Shown here: positions 24,238-34,933 of the stretch, in pieces
Layout: each line of letters begins with the position of its first letter
How positions within the stretch are numbered: the first letter of the stretch is position 1
DNA from: Eubacterium sp.
GTDB taxonomy: Bacteria > Bacillota > Clostridia > Lachnospirales > Lachnospiraceae
Direction: 5' to 3'
Assembly (NCBI GenBank): GCA_024681515.1
Contig: JAILAR010000060.1
Span: 1-43,236, forward strand
Length of the DNA: 43,236 bases
The notes under the pieces: model-generated
What the model saw: only the letters and a program-made list of their open reading frames with translations
Told to the model about the DNA's origin: nothing
The model's database searches: none
Position numbers and translations under genes: made by a program

Positions 24238-25185
24238 TCAGTCTTTCGACCAGTTTTCCGTAGGCACCGCTACTCCCCGGACCAGATCCCGGATCTGCTG
24301 CGCCCCGTCCGTTACGCCTACCGCGGTCATAACACGGTGTCCGAACACATAAGGCGCAAGGTAGCGCACATCGTCCGGCATCACATAGTCTCTTCCGGAA
24401 ATGGCCGCAAAACTCATGGTCGCACGAAGCAGCGCCAGGCTTGCACGAGGGCTGACGCCCAGCAGAAGCTTGCCCGAATGCCGCGTGGAATCCGCCACAG
24501 CCAGCAGATAATCACGAACCTCCTGCTTCACCGTCACCTGAGTTACGGCATCTGCCGCTTCCTCCAGCTGAGAAACATCCGCAACGGGGGTAATATTTTC
24601 CATGGGACTGCTCTGCATGAAGCGTTCCAGCATCTGCCCTTCCTGCTCCGAAGAAAGCGGTTTCATGGACAGCTTCATCAGGAACCGGTCCAGCTGCGCT
24701 TCCGGCAGCGGATAGGTTCCGGTAGTCTCGATGGGATTCTCCGTGGCAATGACCAGGAAGGGCTTCTCCAGAGGAAGGGTCTCACCGTCGATGGTCACAT
24801 GCCGCTCTTCCATGGCCTCCAGAAGGGCACTCTGGGTTCGGGGCGTGGCACGGTTGATCTCATCCGCCAGCAGCAGATTCGTGAACACCGGTCCCCTCAT
24901 CAGAGAGAACTCCTGGGACTTCTGGTTGTAAATGGACAGACCCGTGATATCCTGCGGAAGCAGGTCCGGAGTGAACTGCACCCGCCGGAAGGTGCCGTCC
25001 ACACTCTTCGCGAAGGCCTTGGCCAGGCTGGTCTTGCCCGTGCCGGGGACGTCTTCCAGGAGGACGTGGCCGCGGGAAAGGACGGCAGTGAACAGAAGGG
25101 TAAAGACCTCCTCCTGCCCGACGATCACCTTCCGGACATTCGCCAGGACGTCTGTATATAGCTTTCTTACTTCTTCTAAACGCAT
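24238..25185 (-). CDS. MoxR-family AAA+ ATPase
   Basis: A 315-residue AAA+ ATPase with Walker A at residues 46-53 (V-P-G-T-G-K-T-S), Walker B L-L-A-D-E-I-N-R-A, sensor 1 A-T-E-N-P-I-E, an arginine-finger region L-D-R-F-L-M-K-L and the lid domain G-V-S-P-R-A-S-L-A-L-L-R-A. It is expected to remodel or activate its partner proteins, probably the DUF58 and membrane proteins that follow. I start at 25185 (M-R-L-E-E-V-R-K-L-Y), with GAGG 6 nt upstream. The frame extends to 25308, but those residues come from repeat-like intergenic DNA. Confidence 0.93.
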   Translation of the reverse strand: MRLEEVRKLYTDVLANVRKVIVGQEEVFTLLFTAVLSRGHVLLEDVPGTGKTSLAKAFAKSVDGTFRRVQFTPDLLPQDITGLSIYNQKSQEFSLMRGPVFTNLLLADEINRATPRTQSALLEAMEERHVTIDGETLPLEKPFLVIATENPIETTGTYPLPEAQLDRFLMKLSMKPLSSEQEGQMLERFMQSSPMENITPVADVSQLEEAADAVTQVTVKQEVRDYLLAVADSTRHSGKLLLGVSPRASLALLRATMSFAAISGRDYVMPDDVRYLAPYVFGHRVMTAVGVTDGAQQIRDLVRGVAVPTENWSKD

Positions 25186-25288: not shown

Positions 25289-25297
25289 TGCCAGTCA

Positions 25298-25656
25298 GGA
25301 TTTGACAATCGTACAGACCGTCTGCCCGTTCCCTAAGGCGACCATTTTGCGACGTCGGCACTTGGGCGATGAAAAACGAAGTGCCTGAATCGCCCTAGTG
25401 CGACGAATTATGTGTAAGAAGCATCCGAAGGAGCTGATTACACATAATTCGTTGCGAAGCCGCTACGTCGCAAATTGGAGTGCGATATGTCGTAAGGGGG
25501 ACCGCCGAAGGCGGTGGAACCTTACGGCCCGAGCAACGCGAGGGTGCTCTGTGCGAAGCACAGAACATCTGCGAAGCAGATGCACCACGCATTTTATGCG
25601 TGGTGGCACAGCGGTGTCGCCATGGGAATGCGGCAGACGGTCACGATGTCAAATCC
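25298..25656. mobile_element. Hairpin-rich MITE-like element with terminal inverted repeats
   Basis: A 359-bp non-coding element between purL and moxR. The ends (25298-25343 and 25613-25656) are imperfect inverted repeats of about 45 bp sharing GGATTTGAC, ATCGT, GACCGTCTGCC, TTCCC and GGCGAC in order. GTCA lies directly outside each end (25294-25297 and 25657-25660), as expected of a 4-bp target duplication. The interior is almost entirely paired: an 18-bp stem (25400-25417/25438-25455), a 10-bp stem (25346-25355/25465-25474), CGTAAGG/CCTTACG around ACCGCC-GAA-GGCGGT, CTGTGC-GAA-GCACAG, CATCTGC-GAA-GCAGATG, and a 10-bp stem with TTT loop (25583-25605). No transposase or credible ORF is inside. 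It could also be a structured RNA. Confidence 0.7.
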
Positions 25657-25670
25657 GTCACTCGGACGGT

Positions 25671-28600
25671 TTACAGGAAATATTCCACGCCGGACTCCAT
25701 GATCATCTGGTTCTTGTCGCCGTAGATATTGATGTAGTCACCGTCGGCGCGTCGCTCGGAGTGACCCATCTTGCCGAGGACACGGCCGTCCGGACTGGTG
25801 ATGCCTTCGATGGCCATGTAAGATCCGTTGACGTTGAAGTCTTCGTCCATGGTGGGGTTTCCCGCCAGGTCTACGTACTGAGTCGCCACCTGTCCGTTAG
25901 CGAAGAGCTTCTCCAGCCACTGGTCGTTGGCTACGAAGCGTCCCTCACCGTGAGACATGGGGATGGCGTACACGCCGCCCAGTTCTGCCTTCTGCAGCCA
26001 CGGGGACTTGTTGGAAACCACCTTGGTATAGGCGATGCGGGACTGATGACGTCCGATGGAGTTCCGGGCCAGAGTCGGAGAATTCTCGCTCTGGGGACGG
26101 ATCTCGCCGTACGGAAGGAGTCCCAGCTTGATCAGGGCCTGGAATCCGTTGCAGATACCCAGTGCCAGACCGTCGCGCTCGTACAGGAGCCTTTGCATTT
26201 CTTCCTTGATCTTCTCGTTCCGGAAGGTGGTTGCGATGAATTTTGCGGAGCCGTCGGGCTCATCACCGCCGGAGAATCCGCCGGGGATCATAACGATCTG
26301 TGCCTGGCTGATCTCTCTTGCAAATGCATCCACGGAATCCCGGATTCCTTCTGCATCCATGTTGTTCAGGATGATGGTATGTACGTCTGCACCTGCGCGA
26401 AGGAAGGCTCTTGCCGTATCGTCTTCGCAGTTGGTTCCCGGAAATGCAGGAATGAAGACTCTCGGCTTTGCCACCTTATGCTTGCAGATATAGATATTCT
26501 TCTCTTCGTAAAGACCGGTATTGATGGTCCTTGGTTCTACACCGGATGCCACCGGGAATACCTTCTTTAAGGTTCCGGTCCAGGCTGCCAGAGCCTCCTC
26601 CAGATCTACGGTCACATTACCGTAGGTAAACTTCTTCTCTTCGATCACGGTACCGATGACGGTTGCCGGGATCTCCAGAGCGGACAGGCTGTCCGCAGAA
26701 ACTTCCATCAGGATGGCGCCATACGCCTTCTCCACCAGTTCCTTCTTCGAGATACTCTTCTCATCCAGAGCCACGCCCAGCTTGTTGCCGAAGGCCATCT
26801 TGCTGACCGCTTCGATGATACCGCCGAAACCGATGGCGTATGCGCTCTCGATCTGGCCCTTCTCCACTGCTTTCCGAACCGCAGCGTACTTCTCCAATGC
26901 GTCGGAATATACCGGCAGGTCGTAGGAGTCACGATCAACTTTCAGGAGAACGAGTACATTTCCGGCCTTCTTCAGCTCCGGAGTTACGATGTTCTGCAGG
27001 GTGTTCACATCCACTGCGAAGGATACCAGGGTAGGCGGAACATCGATCTCATTGAAGGATCCGGACATGGAGTCCTTGCCTCCGATGGAAGGAAGTCCCA
27101 GGCCGATCTGTGCATTGTATGAACCCAGCAGGGCTGCCAGAGGCTTGCCCCAGCGGGTGGGATCCTCGGTCATACGCTCGAAATACTCCTGGAAGGTCAG
27201 ACGGATCTTAGACACGTCCCCGCCGGCTGCGGCGATCTTCGCCACAGAATCCAGAACCGCATAGTTGGAACCGTGATAGGGGCTCCAGGAGGAAAGATAC
27301 GGGTCATAGCCATAGCTCATCATGGTGACCGTATCGCATTTTTCCGTCATCAGCGGCAGCTTCGCCGTCATGGTCTGGATGGGAGTCAGCTGGTACTTAC
27401 CGCCGTAAGGCATGGTCACGGTACCTGCACCAATGGTGGAGTCGAACATTTCCACCAGACCGCGCTGTGAACAGACGTTCAGGTCTGCCAGAGTCTTCAT
27501 CCAGGTCTCCGCCAGATCCGCCGGCTCTTCTGTCGTAAAGTAGCTCTTTGCCTCGGGCTGCTCTATCCGTGCGGTGGTCTCCTGATGTGCACCGTTGGTA
27601 TTGATAAATGCACGGCTGAGGTTTACGACCTCCTTGCCTCTCCACTTCAGCACCATACGGGGTTCTTCTGTGACAGTTGCAACCGCAACGGCTTCCAGAT
27701 TCTCTTCCCTTGCATAGCCGATCATGGTATCCACATCCTTGGGATCTACCACCAGGGCCATACGCTCCTGGGACTCGGAAATGGCAAGCTCCGTGCCGTC
27801 CAGACCGGCATATTTCTTCGGTACCAGATCCAGGTTGATGTCCAGACCGTCCGCCAGCTCGCCGATGGCTACGGATACACCGCCTGCACCGAAATCGTTA
27901 CATTTCTTGATGAGTTTGGCAACCTCGGGACGGCGGAACAGACGCTGCAGTTTCCGCTCGGTGGGAGGATTCCCCTTCTGCACCTCTGCGCCGCAGGTTT
28001 CCAGACTTTCGGAGGTGTGTGCCTTGGAGGAACCGGTAGCTCCGCCACAGCCGTCACGGCCGGTACGCCCGCCCATGAGGATGATGACGTCGCCGGGATC
28101 GGAAGTCATACGCATGACATTTTCCTTGGGAGCCGCACCGATGACGGCACCGATCTCCATACGCTTTGCCACATAATTCGGATGATATACTTCGTTTACA
28201 AGGCCGGTGGCCAGACCGATCTGGTTACCGTAGGAGGAATAACCCTCTGCTGCGGTGGTAACGATCTTCCGCTGAGGCAGCTTGTTGGCCATGGTCTGCT
28301 TCAGAGAAACCGTGGGGTCTGCCGCGCCGGTGACACGCATGGCCTGATATACATAGGTACGGCCTGACAGCGGGTCACGGATGGCACCGCCCAGACAGGT
28401 GGCAGCGCCACCGAAGGGCTCGATCTCCGTGGGATGATTGTGAGTCTCGTTCTTGAAGCTTACCAACCAGTCCTGCTTCTCTCCGTCGATCTCCACCGGA
28501 ACCACGATGGTGCAGGCGTTGATCTCATCGGAAACATCCAGATCCTGCAGCTTGCCTTCTGCACGAAGGCGCTTCATGCCCATAAGGGCGATGTCCATAA

Positions 28601-29420
28601 GGCAGGTGAACTTGTCAGAGCGGCCGGCGTTGATCTTGGCAGCGTCCGCCTGGTACATTTCAAACGTCTTTTTAATGGGCTCGGTGTATGCGCCCTCGTC
28701 AAATGCCACGTCCGTCAGCTCTGTTGCAAAGGTGGTATGACGGCAGTGGTCGGACCAGTAGGTATCCAGCACCCGAATCTCGGTCATGGTAGGATCCCGA
28801 TGCTCCTCACCGCCGAAATAGTTCTGGATATGCTGAAAATCCTTGAAGGTCATGGCAAGGCCCAGAGAATCGTAAAGCGCCTTCAGGTCCGCCTCGCTGA
28901 GAGCCGTGAAGCCGTCGAAGATCTTTACATCTGCAGGCTCCGGGAATTCCATCACCAGCGTCTCCGGCTTGGTCTCGTCGGTGATCCGGGAATCCACCGG
29001 ATTCACCACATAATTCTCGATGTCCTTCTTTGCCTCATCGCTAAGTTCACCGGATACTACATAGGTTACGCCGGAACGAATGATGGGCTCGGACTCCTCG
29101 GACAGGAGCTTCACGCACTGCTCGGCAGAATCCGCTCTCTGATCGAACTGTCCCGGAAGATACTCGGTGGAGAATACGAAATCTCCCTCCTCCTTCGGGA
29201 ACTCCTCCTCATAGACAATGTCTACCGGCGGCTCGGAGAAGACGGTAACCAGTGCCCCCTTATATACCTCGTCCGTGATATTTTCGATATCGTAGCGGAC
29301 CAGTTCCCGGACACGGATCCCTTTCAGGCCCAGATAGTCCTTGAACTCCTTCTCCAGCTCATTTGCGCGGACTGCATAGTCCGGACGCTTCTCGACGTAG
29401 ATTCTTCTTACCTTGCTCAT
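25671..29420 (-). CDS. purL: Phosphoribosylformylglycinamidine synthase (single-chain)
   Basis: A 1,249-residue enzyme. It converts FGAR, ATP and glutamine to FGAM, the fourth step of purine synthesis. Domain order: N-terminal PurS-like region (about 1-150), linker, two AIRS-type ATPase halves (S-D-H-C-R-H-T-T-F near 235, N-H-P-T-E-I-E-P-F-G-G near 340, G-G-K-D-S-M-S-G-S in the second half), and a C-terminal class I glutaminase with nucleophile C1090 (L-G-I-C-N-G-F-Q). AAGGAG lies 6 nt before the ATG. The gene stands alone between a palindromic repeat upstream and the hairpin element 14 nt downstream of its stop. Confidence 0.96.
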   Translation of the reverse strand: MSKVRRIYVEKRPDYAVRANELEKEFKDYLGLKGIRVRELVRYDIENITDEVYKGALVTVFSEPPVDIVYEEEFPKEEGDFVFSTEYLPGQFDQRADSAEQCVKLLSEESEPIIRSGVTYVVSGELSDEAKKDIENYVVNPVDSRITDETKPETLVMEFPEPADVKIFDGFTALSEADLKALYDSLGLAMTFKDFQHIQNYFGGEEHRDPTMTEIRVLDTYWSDHCRHTTFATELTDVAFDEGAYTEPIKKTFEMYQADAAKINAGRSDKFTCLMDIALMGMKRLRAEGKLQDLDVSDEINACTIVVPVEIDGEKQDWLVSFKNETHNHPTEIEPFGGAATCLGGAIRDPLSGRTYVYQAMRVTGAADPTVSLKQTMANKLPQRKIVTTAAEGYSSYGNQIGLATGLVNEVYHPNYVAKRMEIGAVIGAAPKENVMRMTSDPGDVIILMGGRTGRDGCGGATGSSKAHTSESLETCGAEVQKGNPPTERKLQRLFRRPEVAKLIKKCNDFGAGGVSVAIGELADGLDINLDLVPKKYAGLDGTELAISESQERMALVVDPKDVDTMIGYAREENLEAVAVATVTEEPRMVLKWRGKEVVNLSRAFINTNGAHQETTARIEQPEAKSYFTTEEPADLAETWMKTLADLNVCSQRGLVEMFDSTIGAGTVTMPYGGKYQLTPIQTMTAKLPLMTEKCDTVTMMSYGYDPYLSSWSPYHGSNYAVLDSVAKIAAAGGDVSKIRLTFQEYFERMTEDPTRWGKPLAALLGSYNAQIGLGLPSIGGKDSMSGSFNEIDVPPTLVSFAVDVNTLQNIVTPELKKAGNVLVLLKVDRDSYDLPVYSDALEKYAAVRKAVEKGQIESAYAIGFGGIIEAVSKMAFGNKLGVALDEKSISKKELVEKAYGAILMEVSADSLSALEIPATVIGTVIEEKKFTYGNVTVDLEEALAAWTGTLKKVFPVASGVEPRTINTGLYEEKNIYICKHKVAKPRVFIPAFPGTNCEDDTARAFLRAGADVHTIILNNMDAEGIRDSVDAFAREISQAQIVMIPGGFSGGDEPDGSAKFIATTFRNEKIKEEMQRLLYERDGLALGICNGFQALIKLGLLPYGEIRPQSENSPTLARNSIGRHQSRIAYTKVVSNKSPWLQKAELGGVYAIPMSHGEGRFVANDQWLEKLFANGQVATQYVDLAGNPTMDEDFNVNGSYMAIEGITSPDGRVLGKMGHSERRADGDYINIYGDKNQMIMESGVEYFL

Positions 29421-33310: not shown

Positions 33311-33766
33311 TCATGACAAACAGATCTTCAACTCATTGATCAGCGGCTCCACTTCTTCCAGCGTCCGCACGGCCAGAAACAACGTATCATCTCCTGCAAT
33401 ACAGCCCACCAGACCCGAGAGATGCATGTTATCCAATGCAGCCCCCACCGCCATAGCTGCCCCGGATACGGTCCGGATCACCACCAGATTACCGGCCGGT
33501 TCGATGGACAGGATCCCGTCGGACAGGATCCGCCTGTACGCAGTATGATTTCCGGTATTGCCTGCCACATAACGCGTTCCTTTACCGTCCCCGGACATTT
33601 TTTTCAGTCCGAGTTCCCGCATATCCCTGGAAACCGTCGCCTGCGTAGCCGGAAATCCTGCCTCGTTCAGTGCCTGCGTCAGTGCTTCCTGGGTTCCGAT
33701 GGGCTGGGCCGCGATGAGCTCCAGAATCTTTTTCTGGCGTTTTTCTTTTTTATTATTGTATTCCAT
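33311..33766 (-). CDS. argR: Arginine repressor ArgR
   Basis: A 151-residue hexameric arginine-responsive regulator. The N-terminal winged helix has A-T-Q-A-T-V-S-R-D-M-R-E-L-G-L (about residues 39-53). The C-terminal oligomerisation/arginine domain has G-C-I-A-G-D-D-T-L-F-L-A-V-R. It sits in the conserved nadK-argR-recN order. The Shine-Dalgarno is weak (AAAGAAT) and lies within the 12-bp sequence that is repeated at the other end of the upstream insertion, so initiation may have been altered by that event. Confidence 0.95.
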   Translation of the reverse strand: MEYNNKKEKRQKKILELIAAQPIGTQEALTQALNEAGFPATQATVSRDMRELGLKKMSGDGKGTRYVAGNTGNHTAYRRILSDGILSIEPAGNLVVIRTVSGAAMAVGAALDNMHLSGLVGCIAGDDTLFLAVRTLEEVEPLINELKICLS

Positions 33767-33770
33767 ACTT

Positions 33771-34052
33771 ATTATTCTTTAAATGAGCCATGCCGCCCGT
33801 ACACAGATTTTCCTCGGCACTATGGTCTGGACACAGATGCTTTTCTCGGACCGACTCGCGTCTAATTGCGGGGCCCCTAGCGGCACGTAGGCTTCCCGCT
33901 TCGCCTTACGGCTCGCGGATTGCCAAGTGCCGAGGCCCGCAACGTCCTCGCAAAGCATCGTATCCATTCCTGTATAGTGCCTCGTCGAATGGTAAGACCG
34001 AAGAAACATCAAAAACAGACTTCTTTTTTTGCCAAGGATAATTATTCTTTAA
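33771..34052. mobile_element. Insertion-like segment between nadK and argR, framed by 12-bp direct repeats
   Basis: ATTATTCTTTAA occurs identically at 33771-33782 and 34041-34052, enclosing 258 bp. CCGCCCGT also occurs beside both (33793-33800 and 34057-34064). Removing one unit would leave a 27-nt nadK-argR spacer, normal for this block. The interior has a 10-bp stem CCTCGGCACT/AGTGCCGAGG spanning about 110 nt and GATGCTTT/AAAGCATC partners that interleave with it. A 77-codon minus ORF (33779-34012) crosses it but has no ribosome site or known motif. No inverted terminal repeats are seen. Confidence 0.6.
33944..33991 (-). repeat. 48-nt module shared with the moxR upstream region (copy 2)
   Basis: The same ordered blocks as 25242-25288: GTCCTCG, AAAGCATC, CATTCC, CCTCGTCG-A-ATG, with one extra base between the third and fourth block. 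It lies inside the segment between nadK and argR. Confidence 0.7.
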
Positions 34053-34063
34053 GAAACCGCCCG

Positions 34064-34933
34064 TCATGTCTCCGGCGGTGCCACGGGGCGATCGAGTTTG
34101 CGCGAGATCACCTCATAGAAACTCCTCTGCTCCAGGCGGATCAGATGAAGCGGTACCTCGGACGCGACCACATCCACCCGGTCTCCCACCGAGATCTCAT
34201 AGTTCTTATATCCGTCAAAGGAAACAATGGCCTCATTGATCTGAGTCTTCCGCTTCTCTTCCAGTTCGATCCGGATCCGGTCGCCGGCATCAAAAACGAT
34301 GCTCTTTTTGGAGAGGGAATGGGGAGAGATCGGTGTCAGTACGATGGCCCTGGTTTTCGGAGATACGATGGGGCCGCCGGCGGAGAGATTGTAACCCGTG
34401 GAACCGGTGGGTGTGGAAATGATCACGCCGTCCGCCTCGTATGTATCGAAAAATACGTCATTAACATAGATCCGCAGTGCGATCAGACGGAGAACACCCT
34501 CCCGGATGATCACCACATCATTCAGAGCCGAGAACTCAGTGAATTCGGTCTGATCCTTTCTGCGGATCGAACCTGTCAGCTGCATCCGTTCTTCGATCAC
34601 ATAATCTCCGCGGATCAGGCGGTCCAGCATATCTTCCATGGCACCGCACTCCACCTCTGTCAGAAAACCTGTGGTTCCGAGATTGAGACCGATCATGGGC
34701 ACTGCACAGGAACCGATGGCATGGCTGGCACGAAGCATCGTGCCGTCTCCACCCAGAACGATCAGAGCATCTACCGATTTCATGATCGCATCCGCGATCA
34801 CTTCTCCGGGAGCCTCATCCCCTTCCCTGAGGACCGTAACTTCATGTCCTTTGGAAAGGATCAGCTGTTCCAGACGTTTTGTGACCGTCTCCTTCGGATC
34901 TTTATTCACATTTGAAAAAAGCAGAAAATGCAT
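34064..34933 (-). CDS. nadK: NAD kinase
   Basis: A 289-residue ATP-dependent NAD+ kinase making NADP+. The phosphate-binding G-G-D-G-T is at residues 61-65, N-L-G-T-T-G-F-L-T-E in the glycine-rich region, L-N-D-V-V-I as the NE/D motif, and D-G-V-I-I-S-T-P-T-G-S-T-G-Y-N-L-S-A-G-G-P as the second signature. The ATG overlaps the tlyA stop by one base (TAATG), so the two are coupled. Confidence 0.97.
   Translation of the reverse strand: MHFLLFSNVNKDPKETVTKRLEQLILSKGHEVTVLREGDEAPGEVIADAIMKSVDALIVLGGDGTMLRASHAIGSCAVPMIGLNLGTTGFLTEVECGAMEDMLDRLIRGDYVIEERMQLTGSIRRKDQTEFTEFSALNDVVIIREGVLRLIALRIYVNDVFFDTYEADGVIISTPTGSTGYNLSAGGPIVSPKTRAIVLTPISPHSLSKKSIVFDAGDRIRIELEEKRKTQINEAIVSFDGYKNYEISVGDRVDVVASEVPLHLIRLEQRSFYEVISRKLDRPVAPPET

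Follow-up and report, generated by a model that had tools for sequence, protein, structure and literature searches.

A hairpin-rich element beside purL as a probable ancient member of a family of small mobile elements that have a conserved RNA-like core and are spread across the Lachnospiraceae

Here, we describe a hairpin-rich element located between purL and a moxR gene in a Eubacterium sp. contig (JAILAR010000060.1, assembly GCA_024681515.1), the 43,236 analyzed nucleotides of which are hereafter called the window. The element is probably an ancient member of a family of small mobile hairpins, non-autonomous and spread across the Lachnospiraceae, in which the arms form a long stem capped by a conserved, RNA-like core of about 95 nt. 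Under this interpretation, a trans-acting enzyme would have mobilized the copies as DNA; on read-through, pairing of the arms would expose the core as a compact RNA domain, which some conserved protein or RNA might recognize or which might shield or process the transcript. Most likely, the core would serve in recognition, whether by the enzyme that moves the element or by a partner that binds RNA.

The element extends from position 25298 to 25656 and, as stated in the first-pass annotation, fills most of the purL-moxR gap (about 74% of approximately 485 bp). Both neighbors, purL (25671-29420) and a gene for a MoxR-type AAA protein (starting, by our reading, at 25185), are encoded on the minus strand, and their protein families were checked. 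The description of the element as hairpin-rich with inverted terminal arms was confirmed by alignment and folding. With the right flank reverse-complemented and locally aligned to the left one, the left arm (25298-25342, plus strand) and the right arm (25616-25656, plus strand, also recovered by the inverted-repeat search) are imperfect inverted copies with 2 mismatches and 4 gaps, and the orthologous left arm in genome G036 carries compensatory changes. The folding energy of 25290-25665 is -206.7 kcal/mol, compared to -127.7 +/- 5.3 kcal/mol for 100 shuffled sequences (z = -14.9), none of which equaled it. The interior is indeed a chain of hairpins, with GCGAAGC-type hairpins and additional inner inverted repeats (25342-25478, 25358-25401, and 25400-25455), and no gene of its own was found, given that Pfam searches (E <= 0.001) with the two plus-strand ORFs that cross the element (25398-26570 and 25480-25725) gave no family.

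The conserved core was delineated with two models, namely R1, built from nine cores of the genus, and R2, built from seven divergent matches that come from five genomes (the window's genus contributing one), were read on the plus strand of the window, and share one plan; the structure of R2 was drawn by us from the fold of one member. The core occupies 25338-25492 on the plus strand, and its 3' end resumes at 25612-25621, after an inserted chain. R1 scores it at 166 bits, with the window copy included in the training set of this model, and R2 at 28.2 bits (E = 4.6e-5 over 190 kb), a score that is untypically low because of the inserts. The core stem, CGACGTCGG ... CCGCTACGTC (25350-25469, plus strand), supported by inverted repeats, alignment, and covariation, encloses a hairpin with an internal loop (25358-25401). 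An extra AT-rich hairpin with the near-invariant tip GAAGCATCC-GAA-GGAGCTGAT (25400-25455, plus strand) belongs to the subfamily of the window's genus and is missing from the seven divergent cores of alignment A2. The last component is a mini-hairpin, GT[GCGA]AC, with a GNRA loop in simple copies; in the window (25480-25614, plus strand), it is split after GCGA by a chain of GCGAAGC-type hairpins (25486-25611, plus strand), which represents another type of repeat lodged within the first. Treatment of the 359 bp as a single unit is unsupported, since this chain interrupts the mini-hairpin of the core. The same interruption is found in one copy from G036 and one from G017, the chain is missing from seven other copies of the genus, and 16 of the 146 searched genomes match only the chain part of the element. 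Chains of short hairpins with GCGAAGC-type tips and variable stems comprise a second dispersed repeat type of the genus (window 25486-25611; L009 1300-1750; L019, L029, L027, and L011).

The window contains a second copy of the core family at 33816-33981, with arms differing from those of the first. Its core (33847-33949, minus strand), characterized by the R2 score (48.6 bits), fold, ORFs, and protein families, is flanked by a 3' arm (33816-33843) and a 5' arm (33952-33981), both read on the minus strand and defined by arm alignment. This copy lies between the genes for NAD kinase (34064-34933) and the arginine repressor (33311-33766), with the core strand in the sense orientation to both. 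Altogether, R2 yields at least five matches in the window's genome, two of them in the window (25338-25492, plus; 33847-33949, minus). A direct search produced two further partial copies in this genome along with a full-length copy, 85% identical, between the same purL and moxR genes in G036. The homologue search proposed in the first-pass annotation thus recovered a family of copies and not a single-copy sequence devoid of homologues. A pattern with 13 fixed letters, run over 61 genomes of the genus, hit 24 places in 17 genomes, 10 of which (in G000, G017, and G036) were judged by eye, from their surroundings, to be real copies. Nine of these cores could be aligned (the tenth is truncated), with a mean column identity of 84%; the arms outside the aligned cores vary from place to place and yet pair with each other. 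Two of the eight loci returned by a search, in a Planctomycetota MAG and in Sphingomonas, were taken as chance matches.

Outside the genus, the family is widespread. R1 matched 4 of 15 genomes of the genus and produced weak matches in four other genera (397 genomes), and R2 matched 118 of 299 Lachnospiraceae genomes, that is, 118 of 298 genera, at E <= 0.01, with E-values to be taken as rough. By our count, 24 of these 118 genomes contain at least 13 scored R2 candidates each. When a sample of the phylum was searched at E <= 1e-4 with stricter filters, matches were obtained in 5 of 398 genomes, four of them Lachnospiraceae (the window's own included) and one from another family. The Rfam search suggested for the element gave no matching family: the window has no match above the gathering threshold, and the search of nine loci returned only a tmRNA elsewhere in L128 and, at E <= 1, two weak microRNA matches far below the cut-offs. 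This tmRNA gene (L128 903-1252) belongs to G036 and has a truncated copy of the element in its vicinity. Three queries for carriage on phages or plasmids produced no match, nor did one pattern run against viral contigs, a weak search given that this pattern fits only 10 of the 99 known copies.

Applied to 85 sources, R2 yielded 99 matches, 85 of them distinct, which were aligned (alignment A3), providing for the covariation analysis on homologues that had been proposed. Changes on both sides were observed for 25 of the 26 core pairs, 86.7% of the paired cells can pair, compared to 67.3% in shuffled and 35-49% in slid controls, and the covariation score of 0.518, against 0.170 in shuffles, was reached by none of 500 shuffles; because A3 was fitted to the model structure, these counts lean towards that structure. 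In helices 2, 3, and 6, all cells with letters are paired; helix 1 is off register in one subfamily. The loop of the mini-hairpin is a GNRA tetraloop in 83 of the 85 distinct cores, and unpaired features persist as well, namely, the internal-loop UU (84 and 83 of 85) and a CU bulge (70 and 81 of 85). With helices that covary above the controls and the GNRA loop, the core behaves like a structured RNA, and its approximately 95 nt appear to fold like one, into a two-part stem, an internal loop, an apical hairpin, and the GNRA mini-hairpin. The suggestion that the element is a structured RNA riding on a transposable element accordingly finds support at the level of the family, in the covarying core and GNRA loop of the 85 distinct cores. 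The plus strand of the window core, antisense to purL and moxR, is the likelier RNA strand: helices 2 and 3 contain 7 G.U cells but no A.C cells, which favors this strand, as does the GNRA loop. Across the whole structure, 71 G.U cells stand against 95 A.C cells, which does not favor the plus strand and results in part from the register slip in helix 1.

The arms are paired but private. The 30 bases on either side of the core form their own duplex with a mean energy of -34.2 kcal/mol, compared to -10.2 kcal/mol when combined with arms from other genomes, and reach -15 kcal/mol or lower in 81 of 83 copies, compared to 9.9% of the cross-genome pairings; this comparison leaves out L079 (the same place as L237), L174 (flank too short), the composites L059 and L063, and second cores adjoining listed ones. 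The two copies with poorly pairing arms are L265 and L260. Within G321, G349, and G867, cores are 77-80% identical between copies, but the arms are only 58-62% identical, near the 55% of shuffled arms. In the recently expanded genomes G189, G166, and G235, the arms are common to the copies (85-95%), and the copies in G189 differ by paired changes of the inner arm, such as GGTACC, GGTGCC, and GGTATC, each with a matching change on the other side. When orthologous copies were compared between G321 (400 kb of one contig and 40 kb of another) and G903, four of five kept both arms (81-100%) and core (97-99%). In the fifth pair (L378 15593-15678 and L419 7876-7960), the cores are 93% identical and reciprocally best among 17 cores, and completely different arm pairs occupy the same site; concerted replacement of the arms, re-insertion at one point with conversion of the core, or differential loss from a tandem pair may be responsible.

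Several sources of the unrelated arms were considered. Drift with compensation was rejected as the whole cause, given that four of the five orthologues keep their arms and that paralogues in G321, with 77% identical cores, have arms of 59-60% identity, compared to 55% for shuffled arms. Copying of the host flank is unsupported at the murB-rapZ site. Derivation from elsewhere in the host was likewise rejected: in about 450 kb of G321 and 1.03 Mb of G903, exact matches of 16 nt or longer were confined to the locus of the arms themselves, and two other matches, one exact over 15 nt and one imperfect over 17 nt, are unconvincing. It is conceivable, albeit doubtful, that the heritable unit is the folded core, with the two long arms being renewed jointly, so that both can be exchanged around a core that stays in place.

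Evidence of mobility comes primarily from G189, where the core lies between 64-bp terminal repeats starting with GTAAC, of which 62 matches were found. In 14 distinct paired copies, 77 of the 112 positions of 8-bp flanks match, compared to 32.4 expected, and the observed 77 was reached in none of 20,000 permutations, as expected of target duplications. The matches per copy (of 8) are 7, 8, 6, 7, 8, 8, 7, 8, 4, 1, 0, 5, 6, and 2; the five copies with five or fewer matches count against the interpretation favored here. In G172, 10-bp direct repeats occur at the base of the stem in two of the six copies listed. Across copies more broadly, the longest exact flank match is at least 9 in 7 of 75, compared to 9 of 400 random pairings, with some of the seven coming from neighboring elements. 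The 8-bp duplications in G189 lend support, at the family level, to the original designation as a non-autonomous transposable element, and the combination expected of a MITE, terminal inverted repeats with no evident gene, was observed in the G189 repeats and in the window copy, the ORFs of which lack Pfam matches. IS66-type elements have GTAA ends and 8-bp duplications. Ends and duplications of this kind, as in an IS66-derived MITE, are present in G189, and the ends of the window copy differ. However, IS66 was rejected as the mover because the PF03050 transposase was detected in none of five genomes searched, drafts that may miss one; inspection by eye of the 1.5-kb flanks of six unpaired terminal repeats in the draft genome G189 revealed no transposase either. 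At the level of the family, the tested features of MITEs are all present, with the exception of a known autonomous partner.

At the purL site, 13 of the 24 loci processed were readable past purL. The copy in G036 (PurL 91% identical to that of the window's genome) has the same arms and core as the window copy, and comparison of the two orthologues showed 121 pairs of the folded element unchanged, 8 changed on both sides, 3 changed on one side, and 22 broken or gapped. The element is absent from G019 (PurL 96%), at most GAGTGACGGAT is left in G002 (93%), and G037 (94%) retains the element ends with a short piece of core, inverted in place (L008 1200-1700). A single old insertion with later losses fits these observations best. 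Among 12 loci at rseP-ispG, a full element was found in G036, left remnants in two loci, a right remnant in one, and no recognizable trace in seven, with one locus misread. At murB-rapZ, the element is present in G321 and absent from the sister genome G903, where the empty site contains neither arm and no palindrome; hence, the arms arrive with the element. By eye, this insertion shows no duplication beyond 2 bp. Of the 30 loci examined at murB-rapZ, the copy in G904 has unrelated arms, and the other 28 show none in the stretch examined by eye.

The window element is bordered on both sides by GTCA (25294-25297 and 25657-25660), which the first-pass annotation interpreted as a 4-bp target duplication. 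This interpretation is weakened by the recurrence of GTGAC at the same end of unrelated copies: by eye, other copies of the genus, located at unrelated sites, have G[TA][GC]ACG at one end and CTG[TA] at the opposite end, and the right GTCA is part of the recurrent end GTGACG read on the minus strand. Because copies at unrelated sites share these end motifs, the GTCA repeat is, at least in part, element end, and the boundaries of the homologues depart from those initially proposed with respect to the GTCA. In the suggested comparison with sites lacking the element, the sister genome G002 reads GAGTGACGGAT at this place, a sequence compatible with either a remnant or a target. The window copy itself has no clear target duplication, and its GTCA coincides with a recurrent end motif.

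Palindromes can be perfected by quasipalindrome correction, that is, by template switching or arm-to-arm conversion, and the family could consist of ordinary MITEs kept perfect in this manner, such that the covariation would be mutational in origin and no RNA function would be involved. The paired changes of the inner arms in G189 are compatible with such correction, as is the strand distribution of the neighboring genes: around 76 loci (L079 and L237 being taken as two), the nearest ORFs, from crude calls, are 11 (+,+), 20 (-,-), 12 convergent, 6 divergent, and 27 unresolved. Correction should nevertheless erase mismatches, but the UU, the CU bulge, and the GNRA loop persist, and one core shared over more than 100 genera is unexpected for plain MITEs, so that we consider this alternative unlikely.

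The same ORF counts, which reveal no sense-strand bias, led us to reject a sense-strand cis-regulator, and they similarly disfavor the broader proposition that the family is a conserved non-coding RNA gene or cis-regulatory RNA that was duplicated many times without being mobile. Strong covariation, the GNRA loop, and the rseP-ispG copy, which is old and shared, would suit such an RNA; the target duplications of G189 and its dozens of near-identical terminal repeats, together with decay and loss at rseP-ispG and purL, would not, which makes it quite improbable. Least plausible, and already disfavored, is mobility of the core alone, by insertion into the tips of palindromes already present, with the arms representing target sequence. 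The nearly unrelated arms within G321, G349, and G867 and the second repeat type, which in the window and G036 copies coincides precisely with the position of the GNRA loop, are in line with insertion of this kind, yet the murB-rapZ site in G903 has no palindrome or arm to insert into, and in the window's genus, the recurrent end motifs lie outside the variable arms.

A mobile hairpin family in which arms and core travel together can be compared with several known systems. REPINs and REP elements are short hairpins that are not known to have 8-bp duplications or long arms around a folded core, and the elements described here differ from them in possessing long arms around such a core and, in G189, 8-bp duplications. 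The likeness is that both are repetitive palindromic mobile DNA without a transposase of its own, as REPINs and REP elements are portrayed in the portions of the source drawn upon (PMC3116915). The pneumococcal BOX, RUP, and SPRITE are small interspersed repeats that have been reported in S. pneumoniae and, less densely, in S. mitis, and S. suis has elements related to BOX; for BOX and RUP, the sections used describe hybridizing terminal inverted repeats, target duplications, nested insertions, and a predicted RNA fold (PMC3049150). The present family resembles BOX and RUP as small interspersed repeats with pairing ends, target duplications, nesting, and an RNA fold, but BOX, RUP, and SPRITE are, in those sections, modular and share modules, whereas here one core occurs in unrelated arms. 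Transcripts of MITEs such as Correia and ERIC form stable stem-loops, and RNase III cuts Correia-containing mRNA at the terminal repeats (PMC10969869, in part); unlike in these partial descriptions, the elements analyzed here have a deeply conserved core, a GNRA mini-hairpin, and changing arms. IStrons combine a structured RNA, a self-splicing group I intron, with a DNA transposon and are proposed, in the excerpts consulted, to render insertions harmless (PMC4227781). A structured RNA-like core riding on mobile DNA is shared with IStrons so described, but the core here is only about 95 nt and has no Rfam family and no known catalysis.

So far as the portions of these sources extend, the family resembles MITEs in its paired ends, target duplications, and lack of a gene, and differs from them in having one deeply conserved, RNA-like core in arms that share no sequence. 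No description of the family was found in the part of the open-licence PMC literature covered by our searches, and within that part, the combination of a conserved folded core with self-pairing arms often differing from copy to copy appears to be new. If the interpretation is correct, the family would constitute a structured repeat found widely in a dominant family of gut bacteria, uniting a deeply conserved RNA-like core with mobile DNA. Copies next to housekeeping genes (purL, rseP, and murB) would then shape transcripts whenever transcription passes through them. It also poses the questions of what recognizes a hairpin with an unconserved stem sequence and how both arms are renewed at once. 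A hairpin recognized via its folded apex, as RNA or single-stranded DNA, and not via its terminal sequence would represent a type of mobile element undescribed in the portion of the literature searched.

Copies were also observed in close clusters. Genome G225 contains tandem arrays of three and four elements (L182 and L183), with spacings of 187 and 164 bp, and back-to-back pairs of cores approximately 100-400 bp apart (L175, L176, L181, L264, L117, and L077) seem to lie closer together than we would expect by chance.
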